A DNA stretch of 64,000 nt from Haloferax sulfurifontis ATCC BAA-897 (GTDB lineage Archaea; Halobacteriota; Halobacteria; Halobacteriales; Haloferacaceae). How positions within the stretch are numbered: the stretch's first letter is position 1; each line of letters begins with the position of its first letter. Shown piece after piece: positions 47,704-64,000 of the stretch. The stretch lies in NCBI RefSeq assembly GCF_000337835.1, contig NZ_AOLM01000004.1:124001-188000 (forward strand), written 5' to 3'. Below the pieces are notes generated by a model. The model ran no database searches. It saw only the letters and a list, made by a program, of their open reading frames with translations, and was not told the origin of the DNA. The position numbers and the translations under genes were made by a program.

Positions 47704-47801
47704 GGGTGTGTCACAGTCTGTGGCGGAGGTGTGGCCGAGATGTACGATCTCGCTACTCACCGCATCCTCGTCACGTATTGTTAAAGCAATCATCGGTCAC
47801 T

Positions 47802-48188
47802 TTAACTATCTGATTCTACCGATTCCTCCGCAGGAGTGTAACACTCGGTCGTAATGCGGCGGATCTGTCGTGCGAGCGGGTTCGTTGCATCTGTCGGCTT
47901 AACCTGTTTCGAGCGGTCGTCGTACTGCGCAACTCCGAGTTCGTCGAGTGTCTCCAGATGAACCTGTGTCAACCCGATGTAGACGCGGGTACGCTGTTCA
48001 CCCGTGACTCGACTCGGATCGACGGCGTTCTCACGCGCAGCGATTTCGACGGCGAGTTCACCAACAGAAACAGAGTCCTCTGACCGAGAGAGTGAGAGAA
48101 TTACCCTTCTTCGTCTGCTGTTCGAGAGTGCGTCGAAGACGTCGGCCGGGTCCAACGGGATCGCGTGATCACATTCGACGTCGGTCAT
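47802..48188 (-). CDS. winged-helix regulator (ArsR/DUF7344-like)
   Basis: 128 residues starting MTDVECDHAIPLDPADVFDALSNSRRRRVILSLSRSEDSVSVGELAVEIAARENAV. The 'ALSNSRRRRVILSLS' helix and 'SVSVGELAVEIAAREN' are the opening of a winged helix common in haloarchaeal regulators; 'RVYIGLTQVHLETLDELGVAQYDDRSKQV' is the recognition helix and wing. Its ATG shares one base with the stop of the upstream HTH gene, and the AddB-like gene follows after 98 bp. It probably controls the operon. Confidence 0.78.
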   Translation of the reverse strand: MTDVECDHAIPLDPADVFDALSNSRRRRVILSLSRSEDSVSVGELAVEIAARENAVDPSRVTGEQRTRVYIGLTQVHLETLDELGVAQYDDRSKQVKPTDATNPLARQIRRITTECYTPAEESVESDS

Positions 48189-48490
48189 CACATTCCCTCC
48201 TGAGCAAGCCACTCTCCACGAGTCGTGAGCAAGACCACCTGTCGATCCAGCTCTCCAATGAGGTCTGCGTACCCTTCAGATTCGAGTTGATGGAGAAGTT
48301 CGTCGATCTCAGTCAGGAGGAGTCCGGTCTCTACAGCGAGGTCCTGACGTGTCGTTGCGCCGGCGGCATCGTACGCACACCTGGCGATTCGTACTAGTTC
48401 TGGGTCGTGGGCCGAGGGGTGAATTCTGTCCTTCGCCGACTGAGAGACAGAGTTTTCACTGTCGGCACTACTACTTTCGTTTGCTGTCAT
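48188..48490 (-). CDS. small winged-helix / MarR-like HTH protein
   Basis: A 100-residue protein with a disordered Ser-rich N-terminus and the HTH 'ELVRIARCAYDAAGATTRQDLAVETGLLLTEIDELLHQLESEGYADLIGELDRQVVLLTTRGEWLAQEGM', a typical helix-turn-helix-wing with 'LTTRGEW' in the wing. The stop overlaps the next ATG by one base (TGATG). First gene of the AddA/AddB operon, with a TATA-like tract at 48561-48570, so the leader is about 50 nt. Two HTH proteins in tandem imply sensing or autoregulation of the nuclease. Confidence 0.78.
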   Translation of the reverse strand: MTANESSSADSENSVSQSAKDRIHPSAHDPELVRIARCAYDAAGATTRQDLAVETGLLLTEIDELLHQLESEGYADLIGELDRQVVLLTTRGEWLAQEGM

Positions 48491-48560
48491 TGTCGGCAGC
48501 TTAGTCTCCGGTGTACACGCACCGGGGGCGATTTCGCGCCACCTGTGGCTACTTACTAGA

Positions 48561-48570
48561 GTATAAAAGA
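48561..48570 (-). promoter_or_regulatory. TATA box for the HTH-AddB-AddA operon
   Basis: On the minus strand the sequence is TCTTTTATAC, inside the AT-rich 48548-48590 block. It is about 75 bp before the first gene, so transcription would begin near 48540. The palindromic GGTGTACACGCACC stretch around 48509-48523, downstream of that start, could be an operator or a leader hairpin. Confidence 0.45.
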
Positions 48571-48697
48571 TATTTGTATTCTTAGCAAGCGTTTGGGTAG
48601 ATAGGCTCTATGAAGGCTCCACCGCTGGAATCCGACGTGGAGTTTAGAAAGCGATTAGAGTAGTGCCTTCAGGGAGACGAAGTTCTGCGGAACGGCG

Positions 48698-49042
48698 TCA
48701 CTCAATCAACGTGAAGTTCTCCTCAACCTCATCAAAATACTCACGCCAGGTTGCGGGGATGTCGTCTAGGGTGTATTCACCATTATTCGCCATTTTCAGC
48801 AACTCAATTGCTTCTTCGTCAGAAGCTCGAACCAGATCTATGTCTTGGATAGCTCGGACTCTGGATTCCGGCGTACTCATGACTCGTTCCCTCTTGAGGG
48901 CGTTTCTGAAGTAGAACCAATACATCATGTTCCCTTCAGCGACGATTCCCGTCGGAGTTGGATTCACATCGTGCTCTTTGCTGGACACGAACGGAAGCGC
49001 CGATAGGTGAGTGATTGTGGCGAGGTATGTTCGGCGGAGCAT
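48698..49042 (-). CDS. hypothetical protein, divergent from the STAND gene
   Basis: 114 residues: a hydrophobic N-terminal stretch ('MLRRTYLATITHLSALPFVSS'), 'MMYWFYFRNALKRERVMSTPESRVRAIQDIDLVRASDEEAIELLKMANNGEYTLDDIPATWREYFDEVEENFTLIE' to the end. I do not recognise a family. Base composition is as AT-rich as the STAND gene. ATG 49042 is chosen over GTG 49054. It shares the 225-bp region 49043-49267 with the STAND gene and could be its regulator or immunity partner; nothing in the sequence proves it. Confidence 0.6.
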   Translation of the reverse strand: MLRRTYLATITHLSALPFVSSKEHDVNPTPTGIVAEGNMMYWFYFRNALKRERVMSTPESRVRAIQDIDLVRASDEEAIELLKMANNGEYTLDDIPATWREYFDEVEENFTLIE

Positions 49043-49267
49043 TGCTGTCGACACAGATGTCGGGGGGCTTCAATTATTCCCCCAACTACTCGCAGGTGCG
49101 AGATTACTTTTGCCGGTGTCACCGGATTGGGAGCGGATAAACTTGGATCCGGATAACCTATCCGCCGAGGGATCAGCCCACGTTGGGGCGTCTACAACTG
49201 GCTATGAGAGAGGTATAGTCGCGCGCGGGGAAAGGCTCAATATCTATTCTCCTCAACTTCCGACTCA

Positions 49268-52200
49268 ATGCGAAACGGGGATACTGAACCGGAACACTAT
49301 GTCTCACGTCCGGAAATTGAGGAACAGCTATTCGCATTCATTGATGACGAAGTAGACCTGCTACATATCGCTGGGGAGCCGGGCGTAGGAAAGACATGGA
49401 CGATAGAGAAGATCGACCGGGCGTACAGCGGTAGCAAGGATGTTGAAATCGTTTCTATCGGAGGCCATCTTGATGTGGAAGACTTCTATCGCAAAATCTA
49501 TCGAAGCATCCTCGACAACCTGCCCGAAGAAAAGAAAGAGGAAGGTAGGCGACTAACCGGCGTCGGCGTAGCTCCAGTTGGTAGTCTTTCATGGGATGCC
49601 GAATCGGCCGACGCACCTCAAGTACAGCTCAAGTATCGAGACGTACTCGAAGGAGTCGCCGAACTTTACCCCGAAGATCAGCACCTTCTACTCTGTATCG
49701 ACGATATTCACAAACTCAGCATCGAAGAGGATCCGATCAGGGATGCTGTTCGAGAGGCAGCCGACCTACTTACAGAGAATATCACTCTGATTACTGCCGG
49801 ACAGCTCTCGTTCGACCGATTAGACACCGAAGTAAACATCTCCACCTTCACGGAGCAACAGACCACATCTCTGCTTCAGGACGAGTTCAAGTATCTCCCT
49901 GAAGAGGAGGCAGCGGAGATACACCAGGAATTGGGCGGTCATCCGCTCTATATCGGATTACTCATCGAAGCCAACGACCCCGACGAAATACCGGAAATAC
50001 CGAAGGGAGAGGTGTACGATGAGATCCAGCAGCGGTATCTCCACTCACTTTCAGCGGACGAACAACGGTTCCTCCGACTCACATCTCCACTCCCCGAACT
50101 CAACGAACGCCTCTGTAACGCGGTCATTCCCAACGACGAATCGTTCGACAGCGTCAGCATCGACCGCCTACTCCGAGGACTCAGCGAGCGAGTAATCACC
50201 CAAGACTTCGGATGGAACGAGAACAGTATCAAATCCTACCGGATTCACGATACATTCCGCGAATTCCTCCAGAAACGGCTCAACCCGTCGAAGGAAGCAC
50301 AGGTTCGTCGAAACGCATTCCGATACTACAGTGAGCGAATCCATTCACTCCTCAGCACCAGCGACGTAGATCTAAACACGGAAGTGGATCTCGTCTTCTC
50401 CTGTCTTAACCACCTCTCAAAAGACATCGAAACCGAAGAACATCAGGAACTCCGTCAGCTCATCAAATCTGGATTCGACCAAGACGGACTATCGTACTAC
50501 CCTGCATCCCTTCTGACAGAGGAACTCAAGACATGGCGCACCGAGGAACTACCCGACGACACTGTAAACGCGCTAATCAGCACGCTCGATCAACGTGAAG
50601 AAATTGCAAGAGCCTTCTATGACGAGAACACACACCCGAGTTGGGGTGAAGAACTCCTCCACCGAGATTTATTCAACGAGCCGGACGGCTATCTCCTCGG
50701 ATATCAAAACCAGATTGTCAACGACCAACCCGACTTCATCCTCCAAGTCATCCAATCAACCACAACAGAAAGCCCCAATACGCGACGATTCTTCGTCAAC
50801 ATCGCCACAGAACTACCTCCGGAAACAGCTGCAAAAACCACGTCAATTGTCGCAGACTGGATTCGCACAACCGGGGACGTACACGCTTTCGAATACCAGG
50901 GCCTCCAGCTGGTCGAATATCTGTGTAACCACGGTGAAACCGAGGCTGCGCTCGAAGTCCTCGAAGCAATCCTCCACCCCAAGCAGCGAGATATCGAGGA
51001 GGAACGACAGCAGGAACGCCGATTTGAACGATACAGCACCATCGAAACCCTCGACGATACCTTCGACCAGTTCGTTACGGAAGCCGGCGAGGACTTTATC
51101 CAAGTGCTTGAGGACACCCTCCGAGAGACACTCCAGTCAGAACAGGACGAAGAAGGGACGATTCACCACGAATCAGTTGCCGACCAAAAGCCGATCAAGG
51201 ACCTCGATTACGACGAAACCAACAGGGGCAAACGGAAGCACATCATCTACACCTACCTCTCACGCGCCGCCACCCACTGGGTAGACGAGAACCCAACCGA
51301 CGCAGACCGGAAACAGCTGATTCAGAACTATCTGGACGACGAAAATCCGAATTTCCGACGACTCGGACTCTTCCTACTGAGCAAGCATCCTAAAGCCATC
51401 ACCGACCGTACCAGATCAGAGCTTCTCGAAGAAGAAAACTACTATCAAGGGGATGTCCAGTTCGAGTTCTATCGACTGCTAGAGAACGGCTTCCAGCACC
51501 TGTCTGCGGATGATCAGGGACAAATCTGCCAGTTGATTCGCAACGGACCCCCGGACAGCGAAGGAATGGAACAACGAGCAGAATATTTAGCCGAACAAAG
51601 TGGAGAACCCGTCGAAGAAGTCAAACAGCGGATTATCGAGAAGTGGCACCGAAATCGGCTCTACCTCATCGAAAACCACCTCCCCCAGAATCATCACGAG
51701 TATCTGGAGCACAGCCTCGACAAACACGGCCAACCAGAACGCCTACCGACAGAGCCGTATACTCCAGATGTCCGCGGGGGAATGGTCGCACAGAAAGAAC
51801 CTGACGAACTCAGCCAGATACCCGGCGACTCGGCTGTAGAAGTCCTCAAGTTCTTAGCCGAATGGGAACCCTCCGAAGAGGAGAAATGGGAACCACAGGG
51901 CGAAGGCGGTTTCGAAGAGGTCAGCTATCACGGTGTCTCGGACGAACTCGAAGACCGCATCCAGGAACATCCACAGGAATATGCGGCCGAAATCACGCTC
52001 CTGAAAGACGCCAAACCACAGTACGCCGACATCGCTCTCCGCGCATTTCGAGACGCTCTCGATGACGACCGAACCTTCCCTTGGAGTCCTGTACTGGAGC
52101 TATGTGAGTATATCGTAGAGCATCCTGAAGGATGGAGTGACCGCTGCCGGTTCGATATAGCAACCCTGACATATAATGCGATAGTCTTAGATGCAACCGA

Positions 52201-53350
52201 CTTCCCAACCGGCCACGTAGACCGCACTAAGCAGTTACTCCTGAACCTGGTCGTTGAGATAGATATCAACCCTGACGACCAGCCCCTGAGCTGGATCGGT
52301 GGCGTCGGAACAACTCAGGAAGAAGTACGAGGGCGAGCCGTTGAAGCAATAGTAATGCTCGCCGTGTGGCAGCACGACGAGGAAGATAAGTCAACGTTGG
52401 ACGGGGAAATCAGGGAGGCCATCCGGACGAAACTCAGCTCTGATACCGACTTAGAAGTTCGGACGGCTCTGGGCCGTCAGTTCGGCAACCTCTGGGCCTT
52501 AGACGAAGAACTGGTTAAAGAAGGCCTCGATGATCTGTTCCCGACCGGTGACAGTCTGGATGCGAAACAACGGTTTTCCAGAGCGTTCAATGGCTATCTA
52601 TCCCGGCACGGATGCCACGCACCCGCGTACAATTTCATTCGACCATACTACATCCATGCCGTCAGCCTCGTGACTGAGGAAGACTCCGAGCAAGAGTTCG
52701 TCAACGCAGATGGTCTTGCCGGCCACATCGGAGCCTCGTATATCTTCCAAAACGAAGCCCTGGACGATGACGACAGCCTGATCAGGCGATATTATAAACA
52801 GAGTTCGCCAGAACTAGCCGCGAAAATCGCTGATGCGATCTCACGTACAATCGAAAATGGAGACGCTCTGGATGGTGAATGGGAGCAGGTTAGTCTGCTC
52901 TGGAGATGGAGACTCCACCAGGTCGAACAGGACATCCAGAGCCCCGAAGAGGAAGAAGACTATCGGCGTGAATTCCACCGTTTCTTCGACTGCCTGAAAA
53001 ACACCGATGAGTCAGGGCTTCCTGAAGAACAGGAGCTACTCGAACGCTCCGTCCGGTTCATCATCCACGACTCGTTCGGCGTCCGTTCCTTGGAGGAATG
53101 GTTGGCCGACCAGTCCGACGAGCACCCTCAAGAAGCAATCACGGTGTACGAGCAGGTTATCGAACCCTCATCCCCCGCGAAATGGCCGGAAATAGTTCGG
53201 TCGAGTCAGGACGAACACCGCGAGCAACTGTATACGAACGCCGTCGAACACAATAATTCAGCATGTAACACCGCGGTCAGGATAGCTAATCAGTTCGCAG
53301 CACAGGGCCAAGAGTATGATCGAGACTTCCTTGACGACCAACTTCGATAA
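49268..53350 (+). CDS. giant STAND-type NTPase (candidate antiviral sensor)
   Basis: A 1360-residue protein with no N-terminal effector: the ATPase begins at once. Walker A is GEPGVGKT (36-43), Walker B is LLLCIDD (140-146), a sensor segment 'ITLITAGQLSFDR' follows near 175, and 'QELGGHPLYIGLLIEAN' (the GxP motif of STAND proteins) near 222, then a winged helix ending 'SYRIHDTFREFLQKRL' near 330. The remaining roughly 1000 residues are mostly acidic helices in repeated pairs, as in an alpha-solenoid sensor. STAND proteins of this build include the Avs antiviral family. TATA-like CAATATCTATT (49238-49248) predicts a leaderless start. The DNA is much AT-richer than the core. Confidence 0.82.
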   Translation: MRNGDTEPEHYVSRPEIEEQLFAFIDDEVDLLHIAGEPGVGKTWTIEKIDRAYSGSKDVEIVSIGGHLDVEDFYRKIYRSILDNLPEEKKEEGRRLTGVGVAPVGSLSWDAESADAPQVQLKYRDVLEGVAELYPEDQHLLLCIDDIHKLSIEEDPIRDAVREAADLLTENITLITAGQLSFDRLDTEVNISTFTEQQTTSLLQDEFKYLPEEEAAEIHQELGGHPLYIGLLIEANDPDEIPEIPKGEVYDEIQQRYLHSLSADEQRFLRLTSPLPELNERLCNAVIPNDESFDSVSIDRLLRGLSERVITQDFGWNENSIKSYRIHDTFREFLQKRLNPSKEAQVRRNAFRYYSERIHSLLSTSDVDLNTEVDLVFSCLNHLSKDIETEEHQELRQLIKSGFDQDGLSYYPASLLTEELKTWRTEELPDDTVNALISTLDQREEIARAFYDENTHPSWGEELLHRDLFNEPDGYLLGYQNQIVNDQPDFILQVIQSTTTESPNTRRFFVNIATELPPETAAKTTSIVADWIRTTGDVHAFEYQGLQLVEYLCNHGETEAALEVLEAILHPKQRDIEEERQQERRFERYSTIETLDDTFDQFVTEAGEDFIQVLEDTLRETLQSEQDEEGTIHHESVADQKPIKDLDYDETNRGKRKHIIYTYLSRAATHWVDENPTDADRKQLIQNYLDDENPNFRRLGLFLLSKHPKAITDRTRSELLEEENYYQGDVQFEFYRLLENGFQHLSADDQGQICQLIRNGPPDSEGMEQRAEYLAEQSGEPVEEVKQRIIEKWHRNRLYLIENHLPQNHHEYLEHSLDKHGQPERLPTEPYTPDVRGGMVAQKEPDELSQIPGDSAVEVLKFLAEWEPSEEEKWEPQGEGGFEEVSYHGVSDELEDRIQEHPQEYAAEITLLKDAKPQYADIALRAFRDALDDDRTFPWSPVLELCEYIVEHPEGWSDRCRFDIATLTYNAIVLDATDFPTGHVDRTKQLLLNLVVEIDINPDDQPLSWIGGVGTTQEEVRGRAVEAIVMLAVWQHDEEDKSTLDGEIREAIRTKLSSDTDLEVRTALGRQFGNLWALDEELVKEGLDDLFPTGDSLDAKQRFSRAFNGYLSRHGCHAPAYNFIRPYYIHAVSLVTEEDSEQEFVNADGLAGHIGASYIFQNEALDDDDSLIRRYYKQSSPELAAKIADAISRTIENGDALDGEWEQVSLLWRWRLHQVEQDIQSPEEEEDYRREFHRFFDCLKNTDESGLPEEQELLERSVRFIIHDSFGVRSLEEWLADQSDEHPQEAITVYEQVIEPSSPAKWPEIVRSSQDEHREQLYTNAVEHNNSACNTAVRIANQFAAQGQEYDRDFLDDQLR

Positions 53351-53487
53351 TGAAGGCTACAGGTCAATTCAGCAGCGGCACGACGAAACGTGAGCCGACG
53401 GACATCCTCGTTGAGCGGTTTCTGAACTTGCCGGGGTTTAAAATCTCCATTCGGGTTGGACTAGTCGCAGAATGGCTGTCGCTCTGA
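53350..53487 (+). CDS. 45-residue protein translationally coupled to the STAND gene
   Basis: The ATG shares the last A of the STAND stop codon (TAATG). The frame encodes 'MKATGQFSSGTTKREP', then 'TDILVERFLNLPGFK', and ends 'ISIRVGLVAEWLSL' at TGA 53487. The one-base overlap is a strong sign of coupled translation. A basic N-terminus and an amphipathic hydrophobic C-terminus would suit a membrane-active or binding peptide. Below ordinary gene-calling length; no homologue is recognised. Confidence 0.45.
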   Translation: MKATGQFSSGTTKREPTDILVERFLNLPGFKISIRVGLVAEWLSL

Positions 53488-53549
53488 AAGCAAGGGGTCT
53501 CCAAGATGAGTATGATTCAGTTTCCGGAATAGATAGGTTTGCTGTGCGA

Positions 53550-53720
53550 TTAGTCCTGCTCTGCGTCGTGAACCGGCAGGTCAGTAAGAACCTCCGGATC
53601 GCAGTCGAACGGACTCGGGAGTTCGTCAACGAAGACCGTCTTTCCCGGTTCAACCATCACCTCGGCATCGGCGTGTACCGCCTCACCCTTCTCGTTCTCG
53701 TAGGTCGTGGGGACGAGCAC
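53550..53720 (-). CDS. 56-residue acidic protein
   Basis: GTG at 53720 preceded by AGGTGG, to TAA at 53550. It encodes VLVPTTYENEKGEAVHADAE, then 'VMVEPGKTVFVDELPSPFDCDPEV', and ends 'DLPVHDAEQD'. Strand-like alternation and acidic codon use typical of haloarchaea argue that it is a real gene or a recent remnant. Nothing is known of its function. It converges with the STAND unit. Confidence 0.45.
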   Translation of the reverse strand: MLVPTTYENEKGEAVHADAEVMVEPGKTVFVDELPSPFDCDPEVLTDLPVHDAEQD

Positions 53721-53764
53721 CCACCTTTATCTTACCGGTGGATTATTCTTTGTCATGTGTCCTC

Positions 53765-53839
53765 TCAGGCCTTCTTCTCGCCGCCCTCCGAATGTTCGAT
53801 CATTGGTTCCAGGAGGACCGCCCATTCCGCGACGGTCAT
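53765..53839 (-). CDS. 24-residue possible microprotein
   Basis: ATG 53839 to TGA 53765 encodes 'MTVAEWAVLLEPMIEHSEGG' and EKKA. It lies 44 bp upstream of the 56-residue gene on the same strand and could be its leader peptide or the remains of a longer gene. Short and unsupported by any motif. Confidence 0.25.
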   Translation of the reverse strand: MTVAEWAVLLEPMIEHSEGGEKKA

Positions 53840-54177
53840 GTAGGGCGAACCCCTACTTGCGTGTATGGACGTGAATTTCTTTTTACCGCCACGTGCTGAC
53901 TACATTCCCTGTATTCAGCAGACCACTTCTGTCAGGCGGTGAGGGTTTCACAGAGCCGCTGATTCCAAATCGGACCGTGCCCATCGCTCGGAAACCGTAG
54001 TGGGGACTGTAAGCTAGAAAATCCGGCTTTTGAATTCTCACTTACTGATAGTGTGGGATCGAGTGTGTACAATGTAGAGGTGGTACTTACTGATCATTCC
54101 CAGCGAACGCTGGGTAACTAGTAGTCATTTTTTGAAACCGAAGTAATGAATTGAGAGAGTGTCGATTTGGGTACAGT
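53840..54177. other. gene-poor stretch before the HNH gene
   Basis: 338 bp with no supported gene. It contains a perfect hairpin CCCAGCG-AA-CGCTGGG (54099-54114) and AT-rich tracts (TTTCTTTTTACCGCC near 53876-53890). Codon patterns are broken in all frames; this could be scar DNA from past insertions. Confidence 0.5.
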
Positions 54178-54861
54178 ATGGGAGAGGACAGGAGAGAGGA
54201 TCTGCTTGATGCCCTTCATCGACTGGCGGAGGAGCTCGGTGAAACACCGACGACTACGGAGATGAATGACCAAGGGGAGTATTGGGCATCGCAGTATCAA
54301 AATGAATTCGGGGGGTGGAATGAGGCACTCCGGGAGGCGGGGTTTGAGCCGAATCAGGTGTGGAAAGTGCCGACGGATGATTTATTGAACGAGATCAGGC
54401 AGCTGGCGAGGGAGTTGAATCGAACGCCGACGAAAGAACAGATGGATGATCGGGGGGAGTATTATGGTCGAAGTTATCTGAAGCGGTTTGGGAGTTGGAA
54501 CGAGGCGGTTCATCAAGCGGGGTTCGAGCCGAATCAGCGAATTCCACAGTCTGCGTTCCGAGAGCCTCCTGACGCATGCCGATTGTGTGGTGACGCTCCT
54601 GACGTGGGGTTGGATTTTCACCATTGGCGGTATGGTGAGAACAAAGCGGGGTGTTATCTCTGTCGTGCGTGTCACGATGATGTTCATGCTGCCGGTGCAC
54701 GACCAGATAACGATCCCGGGTGGTTGATGGGCGCTGTCGAGAATTTAATTAGGTGTCACGCGAAACACTCTGAAGAGACGAGTGTGCGGGCAATCACTAC
54801 TCGGTACAATATTCCTTCTGAAGGGCTTGTAGCGTCTGCGATGTCGAATGTAGAGGTGTGA
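54178..54861 (+). CDS. HNH endonuclease with two homing-endonuclease-associated repeats
   Basis: 227 residues. Two tandem about 55-residue repeats of the homing endonuclease associated type ('LLDALHRLAEELGETPTTTEMNDQGEYWASQYQNEFGGWNEALREAGFEPN' and a near copy from about residue 68) bind DNA. After them comes a treble-clef HNH: CRLC (near 136), 'GLDFHHWRYGENKAGCYLCRACHDDVH' with His-His and the second Cys pair. The C-terminal helix 'ETSVRAITTRYNIPSEGLVASAMS' is HTH-like. Stand-alone, not inside an intein or intron here. It could nick a specific phage or plasmid site. Confidence 0.85.
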   Translation: MGEDRREDLLDALHRLAEELGETPTTTEMNDQGEYWASQYQNEFGGWNEALREAGFEPNQVWKVPTDDLLNEIRQLARELNRTPTKEQMDDRGEYYGRSYLKRFGSWNEAVHQAGFEPNQRIPQSAFREPPDACRLCGDAPDVGLDFHHWRYGENKAGCYLCRACHDDVHAAGARPDNDPGWLMGAVENLIRCHAKHSEETSVRAITTRYNIPSEGLVASAMSNVEV

Positions 54862-55033
54862 TTGAAGTTATAGATGATTCACGGGGTCTATCTGTAGCGC
54901 TGAATCCGACCGTGTGCCGTGACCGATACTCATCACGTTTTGCTCACGCCATCCATTGCCAATCTCGGAGGAGTTCAACACCGCCGTCTATTTCCATAGG
55001 TATTATGTCGAGATCACTGTGCGTTCACCTCTG

Positions 55034-55092
55034 TTATCGCACAGTCTGTGCGATAAGACAATTCTTTAAGTATAAATGGACCATGTGCGATA
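55034..55092 (+). promoter_or_regulatory. palindromic operator and TATA box of the serine recombinase gene
   Basis: TTATCGCACAG-T-CTGTGCGATAA (55034-55056) is an exact 11-bp inverted repeat with a one-base centre. A third half-site, TGTGCGATA, lies at 55084-55092, and between them is a TATA-like TTTAAGTATAAA (55063-55074). The arrangement brackets the core promoter, as in autoregulated recombinase genes; the palindrome could also be the recombinase's own recombination (res-like) site. The start codon at 55111 follows. Confidence 0.72.
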
Positions 55093-55110
55093 TCGAGGTG
55101 AGATGACCTG

Positions 55111-55845
55111 ATGATTGCCTGCTACGCGCGCGTCTCCACTACCGATCAGAAACTCCCCCGGCAAGTTAGGTCGGTGCTCTCTTACGTTGAGAACAGCTTC
55201 GACATCGCTATCGACAGCGATGTACGTGAGGTTGCTGACTACGTCGCCGACGAAGATACCGGCGATGAGCCAATCCCACTTGCGGGTGGAGAAGTGGTAC
55301 TGTACTACGACCGGCTCACCGGAACGAACACCGACCGTGACGGGTACCGCGACATGATGAGTGCTATCGACGACGGTCGAGTAGACGCCGTCGTCAGTGA
55401 TGCAGTGAGTCGCGTAAGCCGGTCTCTACGGGACCTCGACCGAACGGCTGAACGGGTCGTTGAAGAGAACGGCGCAGAATTGCATCTGATCAAGGAAGGG
55501 TTTCAGTTGATCCCCGGCGAGGACGACCCGTTCCAACGCGCCCTGTTCCGTCTTCTTGGTGTATTTGCGGAGTTAGAGGCTGAGCTAGCTCAAATGAGGG
55601 CACGGGAGGGTCTTCAGACCCGGATGGAAAGCGACGAAGACTACCGACACGGTCGGGCCCCCTTGGGATTTGTCAAGGATGAGGGAGAGATCAGACCAGG
55701 GCCAGAATACGATCACGTATGCTCGGTCCTGGACCAAGTGAAGAAAGACGAACTCAGTAAACGAAAAGCAGCCAAAGAACTCGGAACAAGTCGGAAGACG
55801 ATCAACCGCTCCCTCAACGAGCGCGAAGAACTGTACGGAATTTAG
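55111..55845 (+). CDS. serine recombinase / resolvase
   Basis: A 244-residue small serine recombinase. The nucleophile is Ser9 in 'CYARVSTTDQKLPRQ', with 'YYDRLTGTNTDRDGYRDMMSAIDDGRVDAVVSDAVSRVSRSLRDLDR' (catalytic Arg region) and the long dimer helix 'RLLGVFAELEAELAQMRAREGLQTRM'. The C-terminus 'LSKRKAAKELGTSRKTINRSLNERE' is a resolvase HTH. The length fits resolvase/invertase rather than large integrase. The palindrome 55 bp upstream is a probable binding site. It could resolve element dimers or invert a segment. Confidence 0.88.
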   Translation: MIACYARVSTTDQKLPRQVRSVLSYVENSFDIAIDSDVREVADYVADEDTGDEPIPLAGGEVVLYYDRLTGTNTDRDGYRDMMSAIDDGRVDAVVSDAVSRVSRSLRDLDRTAERVVEENGAELHLIKEGFQLIPGEDDPFQRALFRLLGVFAELEAELAQMRAREGLQTRMESDEDYRHGRAPLGFVKDEGEIRPGPEYDHVCSVLDQVKKDELSKRKAAKELGTSRKTINRSLNEREELYGI

Positions 55846-55876
55846 ATGGTACGTCTGTTTTCGACTAACTGGGGCA

Positions 55877-56359
55877 CTAACCGACTTCTTCGAGGACTTC
55901 CGACTCCTTGAGGCCGTATTCTGACTCGAAGAACAGCGATTCCGCTGTCACCGCCACAACGCGGTAGTATCGATGTTTCTTGTTGGTGTGACTCGCTCCG
56001 CTAACCTTGATGATGTCGCCCTCAGCTAACTCACTGACATCCATGTGGTATTTCCCATCGATCTTCTGCTTGTCGAGCCACTCTCCGTCAACCGTGTATT
56101 CCTCGTGAGCTCCAGTGACCCTCATAATCCACGGCTTTACGGCCTTGAGATTCGGATGTGCAGAGAGATCCGCCCACGCGACGTACTGCCCATTCACTAA
56201 TTCAACTGCTTCAGCCTCCTCCAGGTCTACATCGTGGTTACGCTGTTGGAGTTCGTTGACGATCTCGTCACGAAATGCTTCGAGTTCCTTGGTTGTGAAC
56301 TCCTCAAGCCCAGACTGTCCTTGCTGCCTCAATTCGGCCGGGGATGGCTTCTGCGTCAT
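55877..56359 (-). CDS. hypothetical protein beside McrBC
   Basis: 160 residues: an N-terminal helical part ('SPAELRQQGQSGLEEFTTKELEAFRDEIVNELQQRNHDVDLEEAEAVELVN'), then 'AWADLSAHPNLKAVKPWIMRVTGAHEEYTVDGEWLDKQKIDGKYHMDVSELAEGDIIKVSGASHTNKKHRYYRVVAV', beta-rich like an OB or SH3-type barrel. Such a domain could bind nucleic acid. TATA-like TTATTTAACC on the minus strand (about 56382-56391) predicts a leaderless start at 56359. It is divergent from mcrB. Family not recognised. Confidence 0.7.
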   Translation of the reverse strand: MTQKPSPAELRQQGQSGLEEFTTKELEAFRDEIVNELQQRNHDVDLEEAEAVELVNGQYVAWADLSAHPNLKAVKPWIMRVTGAHEEYTVDGEWLDKQKIDGKYHMDVSELAEGDIIKVSGASHTNKKHRYYRVVAVTAESLFFESEYGLKESEVLEEVG

Positions 56360-56612
56360 TCTACCGCATCGGGAAATTACCTGGTTAAATAAAGGGGTTA
56401 GCCCCCAATCATAGAAAAGACGCAGGAACACAGCCTGTACGCGCCGATTCCGGACTCACAGTCTGGATGTCCGGCTGTCAGTACGACCATATTGCATGTT
56501 TGGAGGGAAACAACGACTCTGGGACTGAGAATCCCATCTAGCGGTGCAATGGAATCTCCGTAATCCGATAAGGGGAAAGCGGACAGAGGAATTCTCGGGT
56601 TTTTGAATGGGA

Positions 56613-56621
56613 TTTTATATA
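56613..56621 (+). promoter_or_regulatory. TATA box for mcrBC
   Basis: TTTTATATA is centred 28 bp before ATG 56645; the message should be leaderless. The surrounding 56360-56644 region holds no gene. Confidence 0.65.
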
Positions 56622-56644
56622 CTCTGGTGCATCTGTATTCGACA

Positions 56645-57877
56645 ATGAGTGACTCGTCTGACGATAGTTACACTCTCGAAGACGCAAAAGAGGAGATCGG
56701 AATCCTCCGCCGTGTAGCAGACGACGTCGTCGAAGCGATTCATGACGCAGAGAGTGAGGAGGTCTTAGAATTCCTCATCGAAGTCGAGAAGCTTGACGTC
56801 ATCCACGACGGCGAACGTGGTCTCGGTCAAGTGCGACGTGCCGTTCTCGAATCCTCCCGGGCGTCAGATCGTCTCAAACGTGTCGTGAGTCTTCGTGGTG
56901 ACGAAACCCCCGAAGAGATCCTCGTCCCGAACGACGTGGAACGCAACGCCAAAGTCGCGCTCGAAGCCGGTAAGCCAGTCGTCCTGTACGGGCCAACCGG
57001 TACGGGGAAGACGACGTTCGCCAAGCAGCTCGCACGTGAGACTGGAATCGGATATGCCCTCAACACCGCGACACCCTCGTGGACGCCGTCGGACATCATC
57101 GGTGGGATCAGTCCGGACTACACCGGTGACTCGCTAAGCTACCGGACGAAACTCGGGTGCGTATCCGAAGCCGTTCAGCGTGCTCGCCGATTCGACGTCG
57201 AGTACGGCGTCATCCTCGACGAGATCACTCGGGCAGACATCTCGAAGATATTCGGCCCGCTGTACACCGCCATCGAGAACCCCCATCAGACCATTTTCGA
57301 GACCGACGAGGGCGAGACCATCGAACTGGACGAGCGCGTGAACATCATCTGTACGATGAACATGTCCGACCGGACGGTGAACGAACTCGACAACGCGATC
57401 ACCCGCCGGTTCGCCATGATCGAGCTCGACGAGTACGAGGAGGACAAGCGCCGACAGCTGTTCAAAGACTGGATCACCACGCACGTCACCGACCACACGG
57501 ACCTCGGAGAAAGCGAGATCCTCCGCCTGTTCGAGCGGGACTACCAAGGGATCAACCACGGCCACGAATCGACGTCACAAGGGTCGATAATGCGGTTCGG
57601 CCCGATGCATTACCGCGACGTCGCCGTCTTCCTCGGCGTCGGTTGTCGAGAAGGTGGGGAGTACGAGTACGACCAGACCGACGCGGTCGGACAGGCGTTC
57701 CGGACGTACATCGTTCCACGGCTCCTGAACGCCGCCGCGTTCCCGCAGATCGAGCGGATCGCAGAACACTACCGCGCGATGAACGGCGAGTTCGAGGAGT
57801 TCGATCTCGCGCCAGCGGCTGAACTCGCCGAACGAGAACTCGAACAGGAACGACGTCAGATGGGCTCCTACGAGTAA
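56645..57877 (+). CDS. mcrB: McrB-like AAA+ GTPase of a type IV restriction system
   Basis: A 410-residue AAA+ motor. Walker A is 'VVLYGPTGTGKTTFAKQLARETG', Walker B is 'YGVILDEITRADISKIFGPLYTAIE', and the McrB signature is 'NIICTMNMSDRTVNELDNAITRRFAMIEL' (MN..DR, which replaces the usual sensor 1 and gives GTP preference in the family). The about 100 N-terminal residues are helical, with no methyl-DNA-binding domain visible, so target recognition may reside elsewhere. The stop overlaps the McrC start (TAATG). It would translocate DNA and drive McrC cleavage. Confidence 0.9.
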   Translation: MSDSSDDSYTLEDAKEEIGILRRVADDVVEAIHDAESEEVLEFLIEVEKLDVIHDGERGLGQVRRAVLESSRASDRLKRVVSLRGDETPEEILVPNDVERNAKVALEAGKPVVLYGPTGTGKTTFAKQLARETGIGYALNTATPSWTPSDIIGGISPDYTGDSLSYRTKLGCVSEAVQRARRFDVEYGVILDEITRADISKIFGPLYTAIENPHQTIFETDEGETIELDERVNIICTMNMSDRTVNELDNAITRRFAMIELDEYEEDKRRQLFKDWITTHVTDHTDLGESEILRLFERDYQGINHGHESTSQGSIMRFGPMHYRDVAVFLGVGCREGGEYEYDQTDAVGQAFRTYIVPRLLNAAAFPQIERIAEHYRAMNGEFEEFDLAPAAELAERELEQERRQMGSYE

Positions 57878-59637
57878 TGAGCACCGTTGACGAAGTCTAC
57901 GAGTACGGGCAGGACACCTTCAACGTCCCCGAGCGTGGGGAGATCCGGATAGAGGGCTGTCCGTCGTCCATTGCGGACCAGCTTCGTCGCGCGTCGTTCA
58001 CACAGCAGAGTCCCAGCGTCTTCACGAAGAGTCAGGCGGCACTTGACGGCGAGCAGGAGTACGAGGTCGTCACGGTCACCGTAGACGGCGACGAGAACGA
58101 GGTACTCCACGTCGAGGCGACGGACATCATCGGCGTCGTGAGCCTCACGCCGTCGTCGAAGGTGCAGGTCGATCCCAAAATCGACTGGGAGTACATCTTC
58201 GATATGTTGCTGGCTGTGTACGATCAGAACAGGTCTATCGAGTATCACGGAATTCCGCTTCAGGACTTCCTCTCCGACGATATCCACCTCGACGACGTCT
58301 TCGTGGTTCTGGCGATCAACTATCTCGACGGGTTAGAGACGATTCATCGGCAGGGGTACATCCGCGATCTCATCATTCGGCGTGTCGACAGCCTTGATGG
58401 TCGTGGTGAGATCGACGTCGAACAGACGCTCCTGAACCACGCACGCGGGACGCTGGAGCCACACTGGATCCGCAACGAGACCGAGTACGACAACCCCGCG
58501 AACTCGCTGCTGCACTTCGCTGGAAAAACCCTTCTTCGACTCTTCCGGCAGAATTCTCACGAGAACGATCACCCTGCGTACGACCGAATCTTCTCAGAGG
58601 TTCACCGGGAGGTGGAACGCTTGGAGAGTATGGGCGTCGGAAGTGGGTTGGACCGAATGGATGAGTATCGCCGGATCTCGCTCCACGATCTCCCGAAGCA
58701 GCGTCGATACTACCAGAAGGCGTTCGATGTCGCCAAGGCAGTGATGTCGTCGTCGCTCGGCCAACAACTCCGCGACGGCCCGAGAGAGCTCGTCGTGGAC
58801 TATGTGTTGAATATGGAGTCGCTGTTCGAACAGTACTCGCAGGTCGTCATCGAGCGCGAACTCGCGTACATCAAGTCCTACGACCACCTCGGCGATCTCG
58901 ACGACGTGACACCTGTTCGGTCACCGTCGGTGAATCCGTTCGAGGGTGAGGGCCAGATCTACCACGAACCAGACCACGCCCTGCAGGAAGGTGAGGAGAC
59001 GTTGGCCGTGTTGGACTCGAAGTACTACGCTGAAGGCCACGATCCGGTGAAGGAATCGCCGTCTCGGTCACGACTATTCAGCTACGCCTACCTCCTCCAC
59101 GCTGACCGACTCGCGTTCCTGTGTCCGCTGCTTGAACCCAAGCGTCGTCGAGTCGCCCAGACTGGAGCCGAACTACAGATCGTCTCACCCGAGCAGGAGT
59201 TCGCCTTGGACAAGTACGACGACGTCGTCCAGAGCTATCTACACGACGTCCTCGTCACGAGATCTCCCGAACTCGAAGCTTTCCGTGCCGTCGCGGAGAA
59301 CCGACTGTGCCTCGACGGCGTCGAAGAAACGGACCTGACCGACGCGAAGTCGATGAGCGGTCCGTTCACGTTCAAGGACGCTCGGGACTTCTCGCTCCGC
59401 GTCCTCAAGGCCGCTGCCGACGAACACTCGTGGGAAGTTCGTAACCGGTATGACCTAGAGCAAGACGGTGACTGGACGCGAGAACAGATCGAGACTCGCT
59501 GTGAACAGCGCTACGAGCACACGACGACGTGCGTGCCGGTGTTCTGCCGTGAGCACGGACAGGAATGGATCGACCTCTACTTCCTCCAAAACGGATCCAG
59601 TGAGGTGGAGAAGGAAGGCCCGCTGAAACTGCTGTAG
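57877..59637 (+). CDS. mcrC: McrC-like nuclease subunit
   Basis: A 586-residue protein. An N-terminal beta-domain precedes 'VVSLTPSSKVQVDPKIDWEYIFDMLLAVYDQNRSIEYHGIPLQDFL', the usual McrC opening. The PD-(D/E)XK core is 'YHEPDHALQEGEETLAVLDSKYYAEG' (Asp, then DxK) near residue 370. An about 150-residue C-terminal extension ('FTFKDARDFSLRVLKAAADEHSWEVRNRYDLEQDG' onward) is beyond the standard McrC length (about 350-450). It is coupled to mcrB by a one-base stop/start overlap. With McrB it should cut modified DNA. Confidence 0.88.
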   Translation: MSTVDEVYEYGQDTFNVPERGEIRIEGCPSSIADQLRRASFTQQSPSVFTKSQAALDGEQEYEVVTVTVDGDENEVLHVEATDIIGVVSLTPSSKVQVDPKIDWEYIFDMLLAVYDQNRSIEYHGIPLQDFLSDDIHLDDVFVVLAINYLDGLETIHRQGYIRDLIIRRVDSLDGRGEIDVEQTLLNHARGTLEPHWIRNETEYDNPANSLLHFAGKTLLRLFRQNSHENDHPAYDRIFSEVHREVERLESMGVGSGLDRMDEYRRISLHDLPKQRRYYQKAFDVAKAVMSSSLGQQLRDGPRELVVDYVLNMESLFEQYSQVVIERELAYIKSYDHLGDLDDVTPVRSPSVNPFEGEGQIYHEPDHALQEGEETLAVLDSKYYAEGHDPVKESPSRSRLFSYAYLLHADRLAFLCPLLEPKRRRVAQTGAELQIVSPEQEFALDKYDDVVQSYLHDVLVTRSPELEAFRAVAENRLCLDGVEETDLTDAKSMSGPFTFKDARDFSLRVLKAAADEHSWEVRNRYDLEQDGDWTREQIETRCEQRYEHTTTCVPVFCREHGQEWIDLYFLQNGSSEVEKEGPLKLL

Positions 59638-59641
59638 CGCG

Positions 59642-60025
59642 TTAGAATGGCGCGACGAGCCACTCTCCCTCTTCTTTTCGTTCGAGTTGTGGGCCGAAAA
59701 CCTGCTGGAGAGAGTAGAGGGCGTCGTCGTACCGGAGATCGTAGGTCTTCCCGCTTCGGTGGAACGAGCCTTCGACGACGAACTGTATCGTGGGGCTTTG
59801 ATATTCCAGATCGTTCGCGCGTTTGTCCATCTCGCGGGCGAGTTCGTTTGCGACGTCGTCGTCACTCAGCGCATCCGCGAGCCCGACGACACTCACTTTC
59901 TGCGGGACATCGTCTTCCTTGAGTCGCTGGAGGAACTCCTTCACGGGAATCTGATGTTCGAAGGTTTCGTAGCCACCTTCGATGACGAGATTATACCGTC
60001 CGGGAATCTGTCCGGGAGCTGCCAT
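59642..60025 (-). CDS. hypothetical protein, convergent with mcrC
   Basis: 127 residues: 'MAAPGQIPGRYNLVIEGGYETFEHQIPVKEFLQRLKEDDVPQKVSVVGLADALSDDDVANELAREMDKRANDLEYQSPTIQFVVEGSFHRSGKTYDLRYDDALYSLQQVF'. A beta-alpha-beta pattern with a charged helix; no recognised family. Convergent with mcrC, whose stop lies 4 bp away, suggesting that it belongs to the same module. It could be a regulator or accessory subunit. Confidence 0.65.
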   Translation of the reverse strand: MAAPGQIPGRYNLVIEGGYETFEHQIPVKEFLQRLKEDDVPQKVSVVGLADALSDDDVANELAREMDKRANDLEYQSPTIQFVVEGSFHRSGKTYDLRYDDALYSLQQVFGPQLERKEEGEWLVAPF

Positions 60026-60138
60026 TACCTACATAACGGCTTCGAGGGTTGAAAAATGGGTGCGTTTGCCTGACTGGAAACGTCCGTGGAGTGTGACGCG
60101 TTGTGCCGATTATCCGCATATGAGGAACCGAAGGCAAA

Positions 60139-60263
60139 GGCTCTGTTGAAACCCTCTTGCCGTCTTGCGATTTGTTGAGACGCTAGTTTCGCATCGGATC
60201 CGCGAAAACCGGTCGGGAGAATCGCTCTTCCCGATGTCAGCTCTGAAGGATTTCAACAGAGCC
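60139..60263. mobile_element. 125-bp MITE with 8-bp target-site duplication
   Basis: The termini are GGCTCTGTTGAAA (60139-60151) and its exact reverse complement TTTCAACAGAGCC (60251-60263). The element is bracketed by AAGGCAAA at 60131-60138 and 60264-60271, a perfect 8-bp target duplication. There is no open frame within, so it is a non-autonomous miniature element moved by a related transposase. An 8-bp duplication is usual for the IS1595 group; that assignment is inferred. It fills most of the 355-bp gap 60026-60380. Confidence 0.88.
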
Positions 60264-60380
60264 AAGGCAAAATAATCCGCCACGTTGTCCTCACGCGTTT
60301 CGGTCATACACGTATTCACATTTGTACAGACAGGATGTCAACCGACTCATGAAGCAGGCACCTTTTTCCCGACTCCCCGG

Positions 60381-62855
60381 ATGTCAACTATAATGGTAGA
60401 CGATTCGGGGAGTGGTCTCACCCGTCTTCAACGTCAGATCGTCCACTCCGTCGCGCACGGATCAGGTCAAGTCCGTGATGTCGCTGAGGAACTGGATTGT
60501 TCAAAATCGTACGTTAGGACCGTGATGAGCGAGTATGACCAACAAATCGAAGCTGCTAAAGACCTTTCAGATGCAGATTGCTTACCTGTCTTTTTCGAAC
60601 CTTATTCAATATTCTTTCAACAGGAAGCACTAGATCACCTAAGCCTATCGGAAGGTGACGTGCTGAAATTGACCGGTACACATGAGGGGGAGACTGAGGT
60701 TACGTATGGGAAAGTCAAGCAGATTGATCCTGACTTCTTTACTAAAGAAACCCTCGCACGAGTGAGCGGTGCATACTTTTCTGCGGAGCAGTTGAACGGA
60801 TCTAATAATGACTCGTTCAATACAATCCCAACATTATCCAACGGACGAGCAAATCCCCATTCTGCTGAAAACTTTCACACACTTATACAAAGTGTAGAAA
60901 CTTCATTGAGAAAATCAGTTAATTTCTGCGAGCCGGATATGTTGATTGGTGCGGGGATCCTAGAGGTCATTCACGGGAAGCGCGACCCGACTGACGTTAT
61001 CTCGACGCCGTATTTTACATTCGAAAAAAGCAGCTTCGTGAGCTACGTCTCTGATGATTTTCCAGACATTGTGGACATACAATTGCACGTCGATACGGTG
61101 CAAGAACCCGAGGAGGTCTATTTCACGTGCTACGGTGAGAGGCTCACAGACTCACAACGGGCTGAACTTCAAGAAAGCCTCCTATCGCAAGAGTACTTTA
61201 AGTCTAATTGGAACTACGCTCAGCCCGGCACAGGGTCGCTTGTCGGACCAACGAGTACGGAGATAACTTCCGACCTAGTTCGGGTGATTCCAGAGGCAAT
61301 CCGAGTCGTGCCTGGAATAACTCAGTCCGTTAGCTTCTATGAGGAAGACGGTTCCCCGGTCACAAACTTGGACATAGAAACCGTTTACGAAGCTATTCAG
61401 GACGCTGAGCCCGAGTTTGACGCGTTAGACGCGACTCGGGGAGGAGTTGACAGAGAATTCCCTATACGTCGAGATGGTGAGTCACTCAGCTTCCTTTTCG
61501 ACCAGGTCACCCTTGTGCTTACTCCACGTGGTGATTCGATTGAGTGGCAACGACCTGCGGAAGTGTCTATGTTAGATACGTTTGTTTCCGCAGTAAACCG
61601 GATGATCGCATCACAATTGGATATAGAGTCAATTCAATTGGGAGATCCCCAGGAACCTCAATACACTCGCGTAGATGACGACCACTGGGCGTTCGATACA
61701 AATACGTTATACCACGATCATGTCGGAGACGAGCCATCTACCATCCTACATACGGTCATGGCCCACCCTTTCTTCGAAGGAACGACGATCCATATCCCGT
61801 GGGCGGTCCTTTTTGAGTTCAATAAGCACGCTGATCCGGGTGAAGGAACCAACCGGATGAATCGCCAAGGATTCGAAAATCTCACAACGTTACGGACGTT
61901 GGAGAAGCTTGGTTATCTGACAGTTGCCGTCCAAGATCTCCCGAGCGAGATAGACGGCGGTCTGAACATTGGAGATATCGCCGATATGTATATGCTCGCA
62001 CACGCTGACGAGGTTGGCGCAAGACTCGTAACGGGCGACCACACACTCCAAGAACTCGGACATCTAGCAGACGTTCCCGTCGTGAACGTCGCCGATCTGA
62101 AGACCTACTCTGCGCCCATCGAAGGCGAATCACCCGATGAAGTGGTTCTTCCACGTGTCGGTGATGACATTCATAAAAAGTCGGATATTATCCGAGAGAT
62201 TGAGTCCTTGATTAACAGTGACTCGTCACTGCGACCAGTTGAAGGGAGCCAACCTTCGCCGTTCGATCCCCAGTCAACATTGGACAGGTGGTGCTCAACC
62301 GAACGGCTAGCGGCGTTCTACGATTCCGCAGCTGGAGAAACGTGCTACGCACATCGGTGTGATTTGACTGTCGTTCCAACAAGTAGCGTGATCCCACAGC
62401 TGGCGGAATACACTAACGATGAAACGAATCTGTTCACGCGACAGTTGAAAGACCACCTCGAAGCCGAAAGTGCGGGCTTCCCAATCGATCAGAATGAGTT
62501 CCCGTTCGTGCATCTACTCGTACCCACAGAATACGTTGTTCGGGAAATGAAACCTGGGCAGGGACCTTCAGGTTTCAACACTAAGTTATTGAAGTTACAG
62601 AGACTTCGGGGTCTCCAGTACAGTACGACGTCGGCGTTCACCGCACAGTCGGAAATGCTCAAACGTGTAGGTGAAGCTACCGATAACGGTGAAAATGAGG
62701 GTGAAGTTTTGTCCCTTCAAGACTACTTAGGCCTCTGCCTCGCTAGTGCCACAGACGACGCTATTTTGCTCGTTAACGAGAATCAGACTGGTCTCTGGAA
62801 GTTCAGCCATCTATTCGGAGTAGACGCGCTACGACTGACATCGCAAACTGAGTGA
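60381..62855 (+). CDS. HTH-PIN nuclease protein of unknown system
   Basis: 824 residues. The N-terminal HTH is 'LTRLQRQIVHSVAHGSGQVRDVAEELDCSKSYVRTVMSEYDQ'. A long middle of about 360 residues has mixed strands and is not recognised. A PIN-type RNase core follows: Asp439 ('WAFDTNTLYHD'), Glu479 ('VLFEFNKH'), Asp532/Asp535 ('GDIADMYMLAHA') and Asp553 ('LVTGDHTLQEL'), all four catalytic acids in order. The C-terminal about 230 residues end 'SLQDYLGLCLASATDDAILLVNENQTGLWKF', which looks like a second, decayed PIN half. In-frame ATG 60393 (MVDDSGSG) is the alternative start. The low GC marks foreign DNA. Confidence 0.75.
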   Translation: MSTIMVDDSGSGLTRLQRQIVHSVAHGSGQVRDVAEELDCSKSYVRTVMSEYDQQIEAAKDLSDADCLPVFFEPYSIFFQQEALDHLSLSEGDVLKLTGTHEGETEVTYGKVKQIDPDFFTKETLARVSGAYFSAEQLNGSNNDSFNTIPTLSNGRANPHSAENFHTLIQSVETSLRKSVNFCEPDMLIGAGILEVIHGKRDPTDVISTPYFTFEKSSFVSYVSDDFPDIVDIQLHVDTVQEPEEVYFTCYGERLTDSQRAELQESLLSQEYFKSNWNYAQPGTGSLVGPTSTEITSDLVRVIPEAIRVVPGITQSVSFYEEDGSPVTNLDIETVYEAIQDAEPEFDALDATRGGVDREFPIRRDGESLSFLFDQVTLVLTPRGDSIEWQRPAEVSMLDTFVSAVNRMIASQLDIESIQLGDPQEPQYTRVDDDHWAFDTNTLYHDHVGDEPSTILHTVMAHPFFEGTTIHIPWAVLFEFNKHADPGEGTNRMNRQGFENLTTLRTLEKLGYLTVAVQDLPSEIDGGLNIGDIADMYMLAHADEVGARLVTGDHTLQELGHLADVPVVNVADLKTYSAPIEGESPDEVVLPRVGDDIHKKSDIIREIESLINSDSSLRPVEGSQPSPFDPQSTLDRWCSTERLAAFYDSAAGETCYAHRCDLTVVPTSSVIPQLAEYTNDETNLFTRQLKDHLEAESAGFPIDQNEFPFVHLLVPTEYVVREMKPGQGPSGFNTKLLKLQRLRGLQYSTTSAFTAQSEMLKRVGEATDNGENEGEVLSLQDYLGLCLASATDDAILLVNENQTGLWKFSHLFGVDALRLTSQTE

Positions 62856-62874
62856 GATCCGAAAACCGTTCCAA

Positions 62875-62994
62875 CTACTCGTCAAACTCGACGGTAACTG
62901 TCTCGCCGTCTGCGTTCTTGTACTTCAGCACAGCACCACTGAGATGGCCAAGCTGTAACCTACTCTCTTCGTTCTTGTGGGTCGTGGCGCTCAT
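62875..62994 (-). CDS. 39-residue small protein
   Basis: ATG 62994 to TAG 62875 encodes 'MSATTHKNEESRLQLGHLSG', then 'AVLKYKNADGETVTVEFDE'. The last part is a two-strand beta pattern. Its stop is 20 bp from the convergent HTH-PIN stop, and its codon use is clean. Below gene-calling length; could be a small antitoxin-like partner but no motif shows it. Confidence 0.5.
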   Translation of the reverse strand: MSATTHKNEESRLQLGHLSGAVLKYKNADGETVTVEFDE

Positions 62995-63079
62995 CACAAA
63001 TCATACTTCAACTTCACCGGTCAAAAACGTTCCTCATGTACGACGCCGAACACATAGTGGGTTCGTGTAACAAGGAGAA

Positions 63080-63232
63080 CTACCGGTAGAAGCCTACCTG
63101 CCTTGGTTTCGGAACCTGCGCCGCCCACCGGAGTGCCCGACAATTAAACCCATCCAGACCTGTCGTCAACTCCGCATGGGGCACCGGAACAACTTGTTCA
63201 TAGAGGCGCTCACTGTATTCTGTCCCAACCAT
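63080..63232 (-). CDS. 50-residue small protein after the methylase gene
   Basis: ATG 63232 to TAG 63080 encodes 'MVGTEYSERLYEQVVPVPHAE', then 'LTTGLDGFNCRALRWAAQVPKPRQVGFYR'. It starts 7 bp after the end of the DUF1156-type methylase gene and may be read from the same message. No motif is recognised. It might instead be the remains of a longer gene. Confidence 0.35.
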   Translation of the reverse strand: MVGTEYSERLYEQVVPVPHAELTTGLDGFNCRALRWAAQVPKPRQVGFYR

Positions 63233-63239
63233 CTGGTCC

Positions 63240-64000
63240 TCAGTAGCTCGTGATATCCCGATCCCCGAGCACGCGCGTGTACGTGTCGTCGCCGGTCACG
63301 TCGGCGAGCCGACCGGCGAGCTCGCGCAGGTCGTCATCGACGTCCCACTTCTCGACGTAGTTCTGGACCGCCTGCCCCTTCTCGTAGCGGTAGCGGAGGA
63401 ACTGGAGCTTGTCGAGGTTCGAGAGGTGGTCGCCACCGTCGCCGTTGACGCGCTCCTGGATGTACGCCTGGCGTTTCTCGTTGTCCCAGGTGCCGAGTTC
63501 GAAGCCGTCGTCTTGGTTGTACAGGCGCATCTCCTTGAGCTCCTCCGGCGTGGCGTTCGTCCCGCGACAGAGCTTGTTGACGTCGTCGTAGGAGACGTTC
63601 GACGTGTCGAGCAGGTCGATGAACACGTCCTCGACGCCGATGTCGCTGGCCTCCTGGATGATGCCGTAGATCTCCTGGACGACCTCCTTCGCGGACATGA
63701 TCTCGCCGTCGCGCTGCACCTTCCCATGGTGCTTGGAGTACTCGCGGAAACATGCACCCATCTCCATCACGCCAATGTCGCCGCGGGAGAGGTCGCGGTT
63801 CTCTTCGAGTTGCTGGCGAGTGCGTCGAGCCGTGCGGTAAATATCGCGGCGGAGCGATTTCCACGAGGCAGGCTCGGTGTCGTCAATGGGACGAGCGACG
63901 ACGACGATGTCGAATGAGACGGCTTCGCCACCGATGAACTTGTTAATGTCTGCCGTAATTGGGTACGTCGCTGTTACCTCGAAGCCGACATTACAGAGAG
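63240..64000 (-). CDS. DUF1156-type adenine-specific DNA methylase, C-terminal part
   Basis: The open frame enters from the right edge; about 253 C-terminal residues are present and end at TGA 63242-63240. 'CNVGFEVTATYPITADINKFIGGEAVSFDIVVVARP' and 'NRDLSRGDIGVMEMGACFREYSKHHGKVQRDGEIMSAKEVVQEI' match the conserved end of DUF1156 methylases (the G..vt...P region, then the 'GPGM..F.rY..V...dG..m....al..I' block). The SAM-binding part lies outside. These methylases normally occur with DUF499 ATPases and helicases in defence islands, so such genes are expected to the right. Confidence 0.78.
   Translation of the reverse strand, partial: LCNVGFEVTATYPITADINKFIGGEAVSFDIVVVARPIDDTEPASWKSLRRDIYRTARRTRQQLEENRDLSRGDIGVMEMGACFREYSKHHGKVQRDGEIMSAKEVVQEIYGIIQEASDIGVEDVFIDLLDTSNVSYDDVNKLCRGTNATPEELKEMRLYNQDDGFELGTWDNEKRQAYIQERVNGDGGDHLSNLDKLQFLRYRYEKGQAVQNYVEKWDVDDDLRELAGRLADVTGDDTYTRVLGDRDITSY

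Follow-up and report, generated by a model that had tools for sequence, protein, structure and literature searches.

Genomic context of the gene

The window analyzed here is a 64,000-nucleotide stretch of the Haloferax sulfurifontis ATCC BAA-897 genome (contig NZ_AOLM01000004.1, positions 124,001 to 188,000, forward strand). Toward its right end lies an intact open reading frame of 824 codons (Table 1), which an earlier note on this DNA had described as a large HTH-PIN protein of about 820 residues. That description was confirmed, along with two remarks on the setting of the gene: its GC content is low (49%, compared with 66–74% over the window's first 40 kb), and it is placed between McrB- and McrC-like genes upstream and a DUF1156/HmaB-like methylase gene downstream. 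No PADLOC 2.0 model matched the 824-aa protein, nor was there a match in PHROGs. Just upstream of the gene, at 60139–60263, sits a 125-bp MITE-like repeat with 17-bp terminal inverted repeats (GGCTCTGTTGAAA...), which is present in three copies in the genome at 76–100% identity. The regions upstream of the different PIN gene copies had no operator-like repeat in common.

Table 1. Features of the locus in window coordinates.
Feature	Coordinates	Strand	Remarks
tRNA-Arg(TCG), left island boundary	39960..40034	+	G189 diverges after 40035
Genomic island	40035..64000	.	Right end 26.7 kb past the window, at window-equivalent 90735
McrB-like AAA_5 ATPase and McrC-like protein, neighbors	56603..59637	+	
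wHTH / predicted Cdc48-N-like / PIN / degenerate-PIN protein	60381..62855	+	824 aa, intact frame; homologues
Winged helix-turn-helix (wHTH), residues 11–62	60411..60566	+	Pfam, model, conservation
Middle domain, residues 66–432	60576..61676	+	Predicted Cdc48/p97-N-like: double-psi barrel and beta-clam, with insert
PIN domain, residues 435–575	61683..62105	+	Acids D439, E479, D535, D553
Degenerate PIN-like domain, residues 650–820	62328..62840	+	Without the conserved catalytic set
Convergent 39-aa micro-ORF	62875..62994	-	MSATTHKNEESRLQLGHLSGAVLKYKNADGETVTVEFDE; found at all six loci
DUF1156/HmaB-like DNA methylase, C-terminal part	63240..64000	-	890 aa, runs past the window end

A 50.7-kb exchangeable island at the tRNA-Arg gene contains the PIN gene: the match to G189, a genome of the same species that lacks the PIN gene, breaks off after 40035 and is regained at window-equivalent 90735. 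Between those two points, G189 has another insert of about 11.5 kb. The right junction carries a 14-bp exact copy of the tRNA-Arg 3' end. Among the contents of the island are McrBC and the DUF1156-like methylase and, past the window, a DUF262 protein and a sacsin-like HNH protein, both named from sequence inspection. The sacsin-like HNH protein is a 1692-aa frame (L009:12108–17186) with, by inspection, a sacsin-like N-terminal ATPase region and a C-terminal HNH motif. The window also encodes, at 49268–53350, a protein of 1360 aa that begins with an AAA_16-like ATPase; its C-terminal region (residues 504–1354) matches Dsr1 (E = 4e-37) without the SIR2 part, and it is possibly a Dsr1-like defense protein in which the effector has been swapped.

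Domain architecture of the 824-aa protein

The N-terminal helix-turn-helix was weak in Pfam (HTH_27, E = 0.13) yet conserved. In the structure model, its helices span residues 15–25, 31–38, 42–51, and 53–64, and the same HTH was seen in many haloarchaeal proteins of ~130 aa. In genome G239, a 338-aa protein (L050:1811–2827) carries a wHTH of the same type ahead of an Mrr-type restriction nuclease domain, which suggests that the wHTH is a mobile module of haloarchaeal defense proteins.

The presence of a PIN fold at residues 430–570 was recovered by both profile and model. The single sequence reached Pfam PIN at E = 0.12, the best of the six homologues matched PIN_4 at E = 2.4e-6, and a profile of all six matched the solved PIN protein TTHA0540 (3ix7, E = 9e-5) and RNA-free RNase P (E = 0.005). 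The model of this region had PIN topology, a Rossmann-like fold, and Foldseek placed it with the solved PIN proteins 1o4w (prob 1.00), 3i8o, 3ix7, and 2mdt. The earlier note had listed four PIN acids, with D532 and D535 as alternatives for the third. Residues D439, E479, D535, and D553 were invariant in the six homologues at 21–38% identity, while D532 was replaced by His in one of them; the third acid is therefore D535, and the D532 alternative was dropped.

A flap- or nick-cutting DNA nuclease of the PIN-like FEN fold, directed against invading DNA, would suit the DNA-modification and restriction genes nearby. We consider this extremely improbable, as the profile and structure comparisons led to PIN proteins and RNA-free RNase P and not to FEN1-type nucleases. 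The reach of the PIN profile to RNA-free RNase P, together with the N-terminal HTH, would also agree with a regulatory RNase or transcription factor, in which the HTH sits on DNA and the PIN domain trims a transcript with no toxin involved. That reading is very improbable given that the gene is too rare and too mobile for housekeeping and is missing from the same-species genome.

The proposal of a second, decayed PIN domain at the C-terminus was supported by an hhalign comparison of the PIN and C-terminal blocks (P = 2e-4 over 97 columns) and by a predicted order of strands and helices that fits PIN. The detail that Asn had replaced the last Asp in this half did not hold up, since the column reads N/P/H/T/A/T among the six homologues and is unconserved; the next candidate column reads N/S/D/N/A/L. 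The domain order, the intact PIN acids, and the degenerate second PIN are established at the level of sequence.

The middle of the protein, some 360 residues, had been left unassigned. We modeled this domain alone from six sequences (model m74f5850f0190; pLDDT 76, pTM 0.70, moderate confidence). In a Foldseek search of this model against the PDB, all 50 of the 50 best matches were N-domain chains of p97/Cdc48 (best E 3.8e-4, TM-score on target up to 0.65), and a double-psi barrel followed by a beta-clam was present in this moderate-confidence model. A UFD1-like protein in a viral library was also matched, weakly. The N-domain match was interpretable only because the middle domain was modeled separately; a likeness to full-length p97 was rejected, the whole-protein search against the PDB having given a TM-score of about 0.12. 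When the middle domain was compared with ten haloarchaeal Cdc48 N-domains by profile, the GD-box fell in register and the result was not significant (hhalign P = 0.029). Because structure matches but sequence stays at that value, the Cdc48/p97-N-like fold is a supported prediction by structure and not proven ancestry. Elsewhere, this fold serves protein–protein recognition.

A convergent micro-ORF accompanies every copy

All six copies of the PIN gene are followed, 6–35 bp past the stop codon, by a convergent ORF of 39–42 aa on the opposite strand (the L013 ORF measures 40 or 31 aa, according to which start is used). Of 107 other genes of the same loci, 4 are followed by a similar ORF (Fisher p = 8e-8 vs. 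6/6). Homology is clear between the Haloferax micro-ORF and that of its closest relative, G486 (locus L053; 62%), and plausible for G334 (L010; 37%); those of L011–L013 are recognized mainly by position and size, with L013 a poor match. Between the Haloferax and G486 micro-ORFs, 38 of 120 bases differ, 24 of the 38 at third positions (dN = 0.27, dS = 1.76), and the 13 base changes within the final 20 codons alter three amino acids, a number below all 5000 random placements. As read from these substitutions, the micro-ORF of this closest pair is under protein-coding selection. The encoded micro-protein has no AbrB or RHH domain and is probably an inhibitor or activator of the PIN protein. Apart from one chance match, the Haloferax micro-ORF sequence was absent elsewhere in 392 genomes; the match, in G065 (51% over 35 aa), was rejected, as it lies inside an unrelated acetyltransferase-like frame.

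These observations bear on how many proteins the system comprises. DS-3, a one-protein PIN system, protects E. coli from phage, requires its PIN catalytic residues, and has no cognate antitoxin (PMC13092281). The 824-aa protein could likewise bring about abortive infection by itself, kept in check by its Cdc48-N-like and pseudo-PIN domains, with the micro-ORF a separate gene that is unrelated or regulatory. DS-3 does act without an antitoxin (PMC13092281), and the Haloferax gene is monocistronic with the micro-ORF on the other strand, but the micro-ORF tracks the gene into six unrelated contexts and its own sequence is not found elsewhere in the genomes searched. We regard the stand-alone reading as unlikely, though it deserves to be weighed. 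DS-3 (DefensePredictor) and the 824-aa protein both carry PIN catalytic acids and lack an upstream antitoxin. They are set apart by description, in that the PIN of DS-3 is split between the N- and C-terminus, whereas here one intact and one degenerate PIN are present; the wHTH, the predicted Cdc48-N-like domain, and the convergent micro-ORF are additional. DS-5, a two-protein PIN system that also protects E. coli from phage, requires both its PIN catalytic residues and the second protein and is probably not a toxin–antitoxin pair (PMC13092281).

Distribution and mobility

Full-length homologues sharing 22–38% identity were rare: among about 500 further haloarchaeal genomes, five carried one, namely G334, G486, Natrinema altunense AJ2 (G004), Halomarina oriensis (G158), and G265. 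The remaining matches of this search were HTH only, PIN only, or chance. A contig scan of genomes with the single sequence gave no matches, and with the alignment it matched only Natrinema altunense and Halomarina oriensis. No relatives of the 824-aa protein were present in the viral, plasmid, and phage collections. Among partial matches, L007 was a PilT-N ATPase and thereby a genuine, if remote, PIN relative; L006 and L008 were rejected as chance. The homologues did not prove to be housekeeping RNases outside defense.

The neighborhoods of the homologues vary. The G334 copy adjoins Orc1/ParA genes, the Natrinema and G265 copies are solitary in the chromosome, and the G486 copy lies in a BREX operon. 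The Halomarina oriensis copy is located between two integrase-like ORFs and near capsid-like ORFs, all recognized by inspection (L012:1433–11136). That locus is a possible provirus; the capsid-like ORFs are small and matched no known virus, so a provirus around this copy is not claimed. A mobile, accessory distribution of the gene is established from these sequence comparisons. Only one of the six copies is within a known defense operon, and two stand alone in ordinary chromosome.

The brxC-pglX interval as a cargo slot

The closest homologue (G486) lies between brxC and pglX, in opposite orientation, in a BREX locus in which PADLOC recognized brxHII, pglZ, pglX, two brxC, and brxB. It is the one copy of six within or next to core BREX genes; the window copy is outside. 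The slot is empty in the related loci L083 (146 bp) and L087 (80 bp). Elsewhere, it contains a VapBC pair (L095), a PIN protein (L094), a HEPN protein (L091), or an RFC-like ATPase (L086), and the brxC-pglX interval appears as a cargo slot in haloarchaeal BREX loci. In this small and non-systematic sample, an RNase-type domain was present in four of five occupied slots, G486 counted.

The occurrence of VapBC in the equivalent slot in G065, together with the plasmid-like Orc1/ParA, integrase-bounded, and tRNA-island contexts, would accord with a classical toxin–antitoxin addiction module that stabilizes islands, plasmids, or defense operons and has no antiviral role of its own. An addiction toxin would need neither this size nor so many domains, and the partner is convergent where antitoxins are normally upstream and co-directional; an addiction module is distinctly unlikely in our judgment. 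VapBC shares the PIN catalytic acids and the brxC-pglX slot with the module studied here, but a VapBC toxin is a single PIN of about 130 aa, far from the size of an 824-aa multidomain protein. Among the ORFs listed for the window and for the five homologous loci, no VapBC-type upstream, co-directional AbrB, RHH, or Phd antitoxin lies beside the gene.

PIN, HEPN, and Schlafen RNases are listed as backup effectors inside BREX loci, and PIN endoRNases are described there as uncommon, with OLD-ABC-paired forms named (PMC12839542). The PIN-type effectors of that list resemble the G486 copy in being RNases set among core BREX genes, and they are predicted to form a second, suicidal layer. They differ from the present case in that this architecture is not described in PMC12839542 and five of the six copies are outside BREX.

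Other PIN proteins resemble the 824-aa protein in part. The closest PIN sequences are those of archaeal PilT-N/PIN ATPases (PRK13764) and TTHA0540-type proteins; the 824-aa protein has no ATPase and no TRAM, and the surrounding domains are unrelated. A second family of ~805 aa occurs in two haloarchaeal genomes (L046:1702–4131 and L047:890–3304), with a ~450-residue N-terminal region, a PIN domain in the same relative place, and a C-terminal region, as here. The two families aligned with an hhalign probability of 93% over 255 columns, but the N-terminal half of the second is unrelated and unalignable and lacks a wHTH. Next to L046, the ORF in convergent position is a wHTH-like one of 72 aa and not a micro-ORF.

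A candidate mobile PIN-RNase effector module

The gene gives the impression of a self-sufficient toxin or suicide system directed against viruses. The reading we favor, with somewhat better than an even chance of being right, is a two-gene mobile PIN-RNase toxin or backup-effector module made up of the 824-aa protein and a 39-aa partner of its own, the two genes lying tail-to-tail. The earlier note had suggested a single-protein RNA-cleaving abortive-infection system. An accessory RNase effector of defense or abortive infection does fit best, given the patchy, mobile spread, the tRNA island with restriction genes, and the one BREX copy; "single-protein" is probably wrong, because every copy has the conserved convergent micro-ORF.

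We infer RNase activity, toxicity, a part in defense, and a role for the micro-protein, and the module might work as follows. The wHTH would bind nucleic acid or the promoter of the module itself, and the PIN and pseudo-PIN domains would pair with each other inside a single polypeptide, a pairing that PIN domains normally achieve by dimerizing. The Cdc48-N-like domain, the micro-protein, or both would keep the nuclease inactive; infection, or the loss or failure of the adjacent restriction system, would release it. By analogy with PIN precedents, the PIN domain would then cleave cellular RNA, most likely tRNA, and growth would stop before the virus could spread.

A more specific version, which we consider quite improbable, has the RNase held by a Cdc48/Ufd1-like recognition domain together with the convergent micro-protein, and perhaps responding to ubiquitin-like (SAMP) tagging or Cdc48-type remodeling of proteins during archaeal virus infection. 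If true, it would be a new kind of toxin control.

As far as our searches reach, the literature offers no precedent for the architecture, the predicted Cdc48-N-like middle, or the convergent micro-ORF. The micro-protein is an example of a small gene easily missed by gene callers, and the brxC-pglX slot offers a concrete, testable case of BREX loci swapping RNase toxins (the 824-aa module, VapBC, PIN, and HEPN) at one position. Archaeal antiviral RNases are little characterized. If the two-gene reading is right, a compact unit would be shuttling among islands, plasmid-like elements, and a BREX operon, and it would carry a PIN nuclease joined to a domain that the literature searched had not connected with PIN toxins before.
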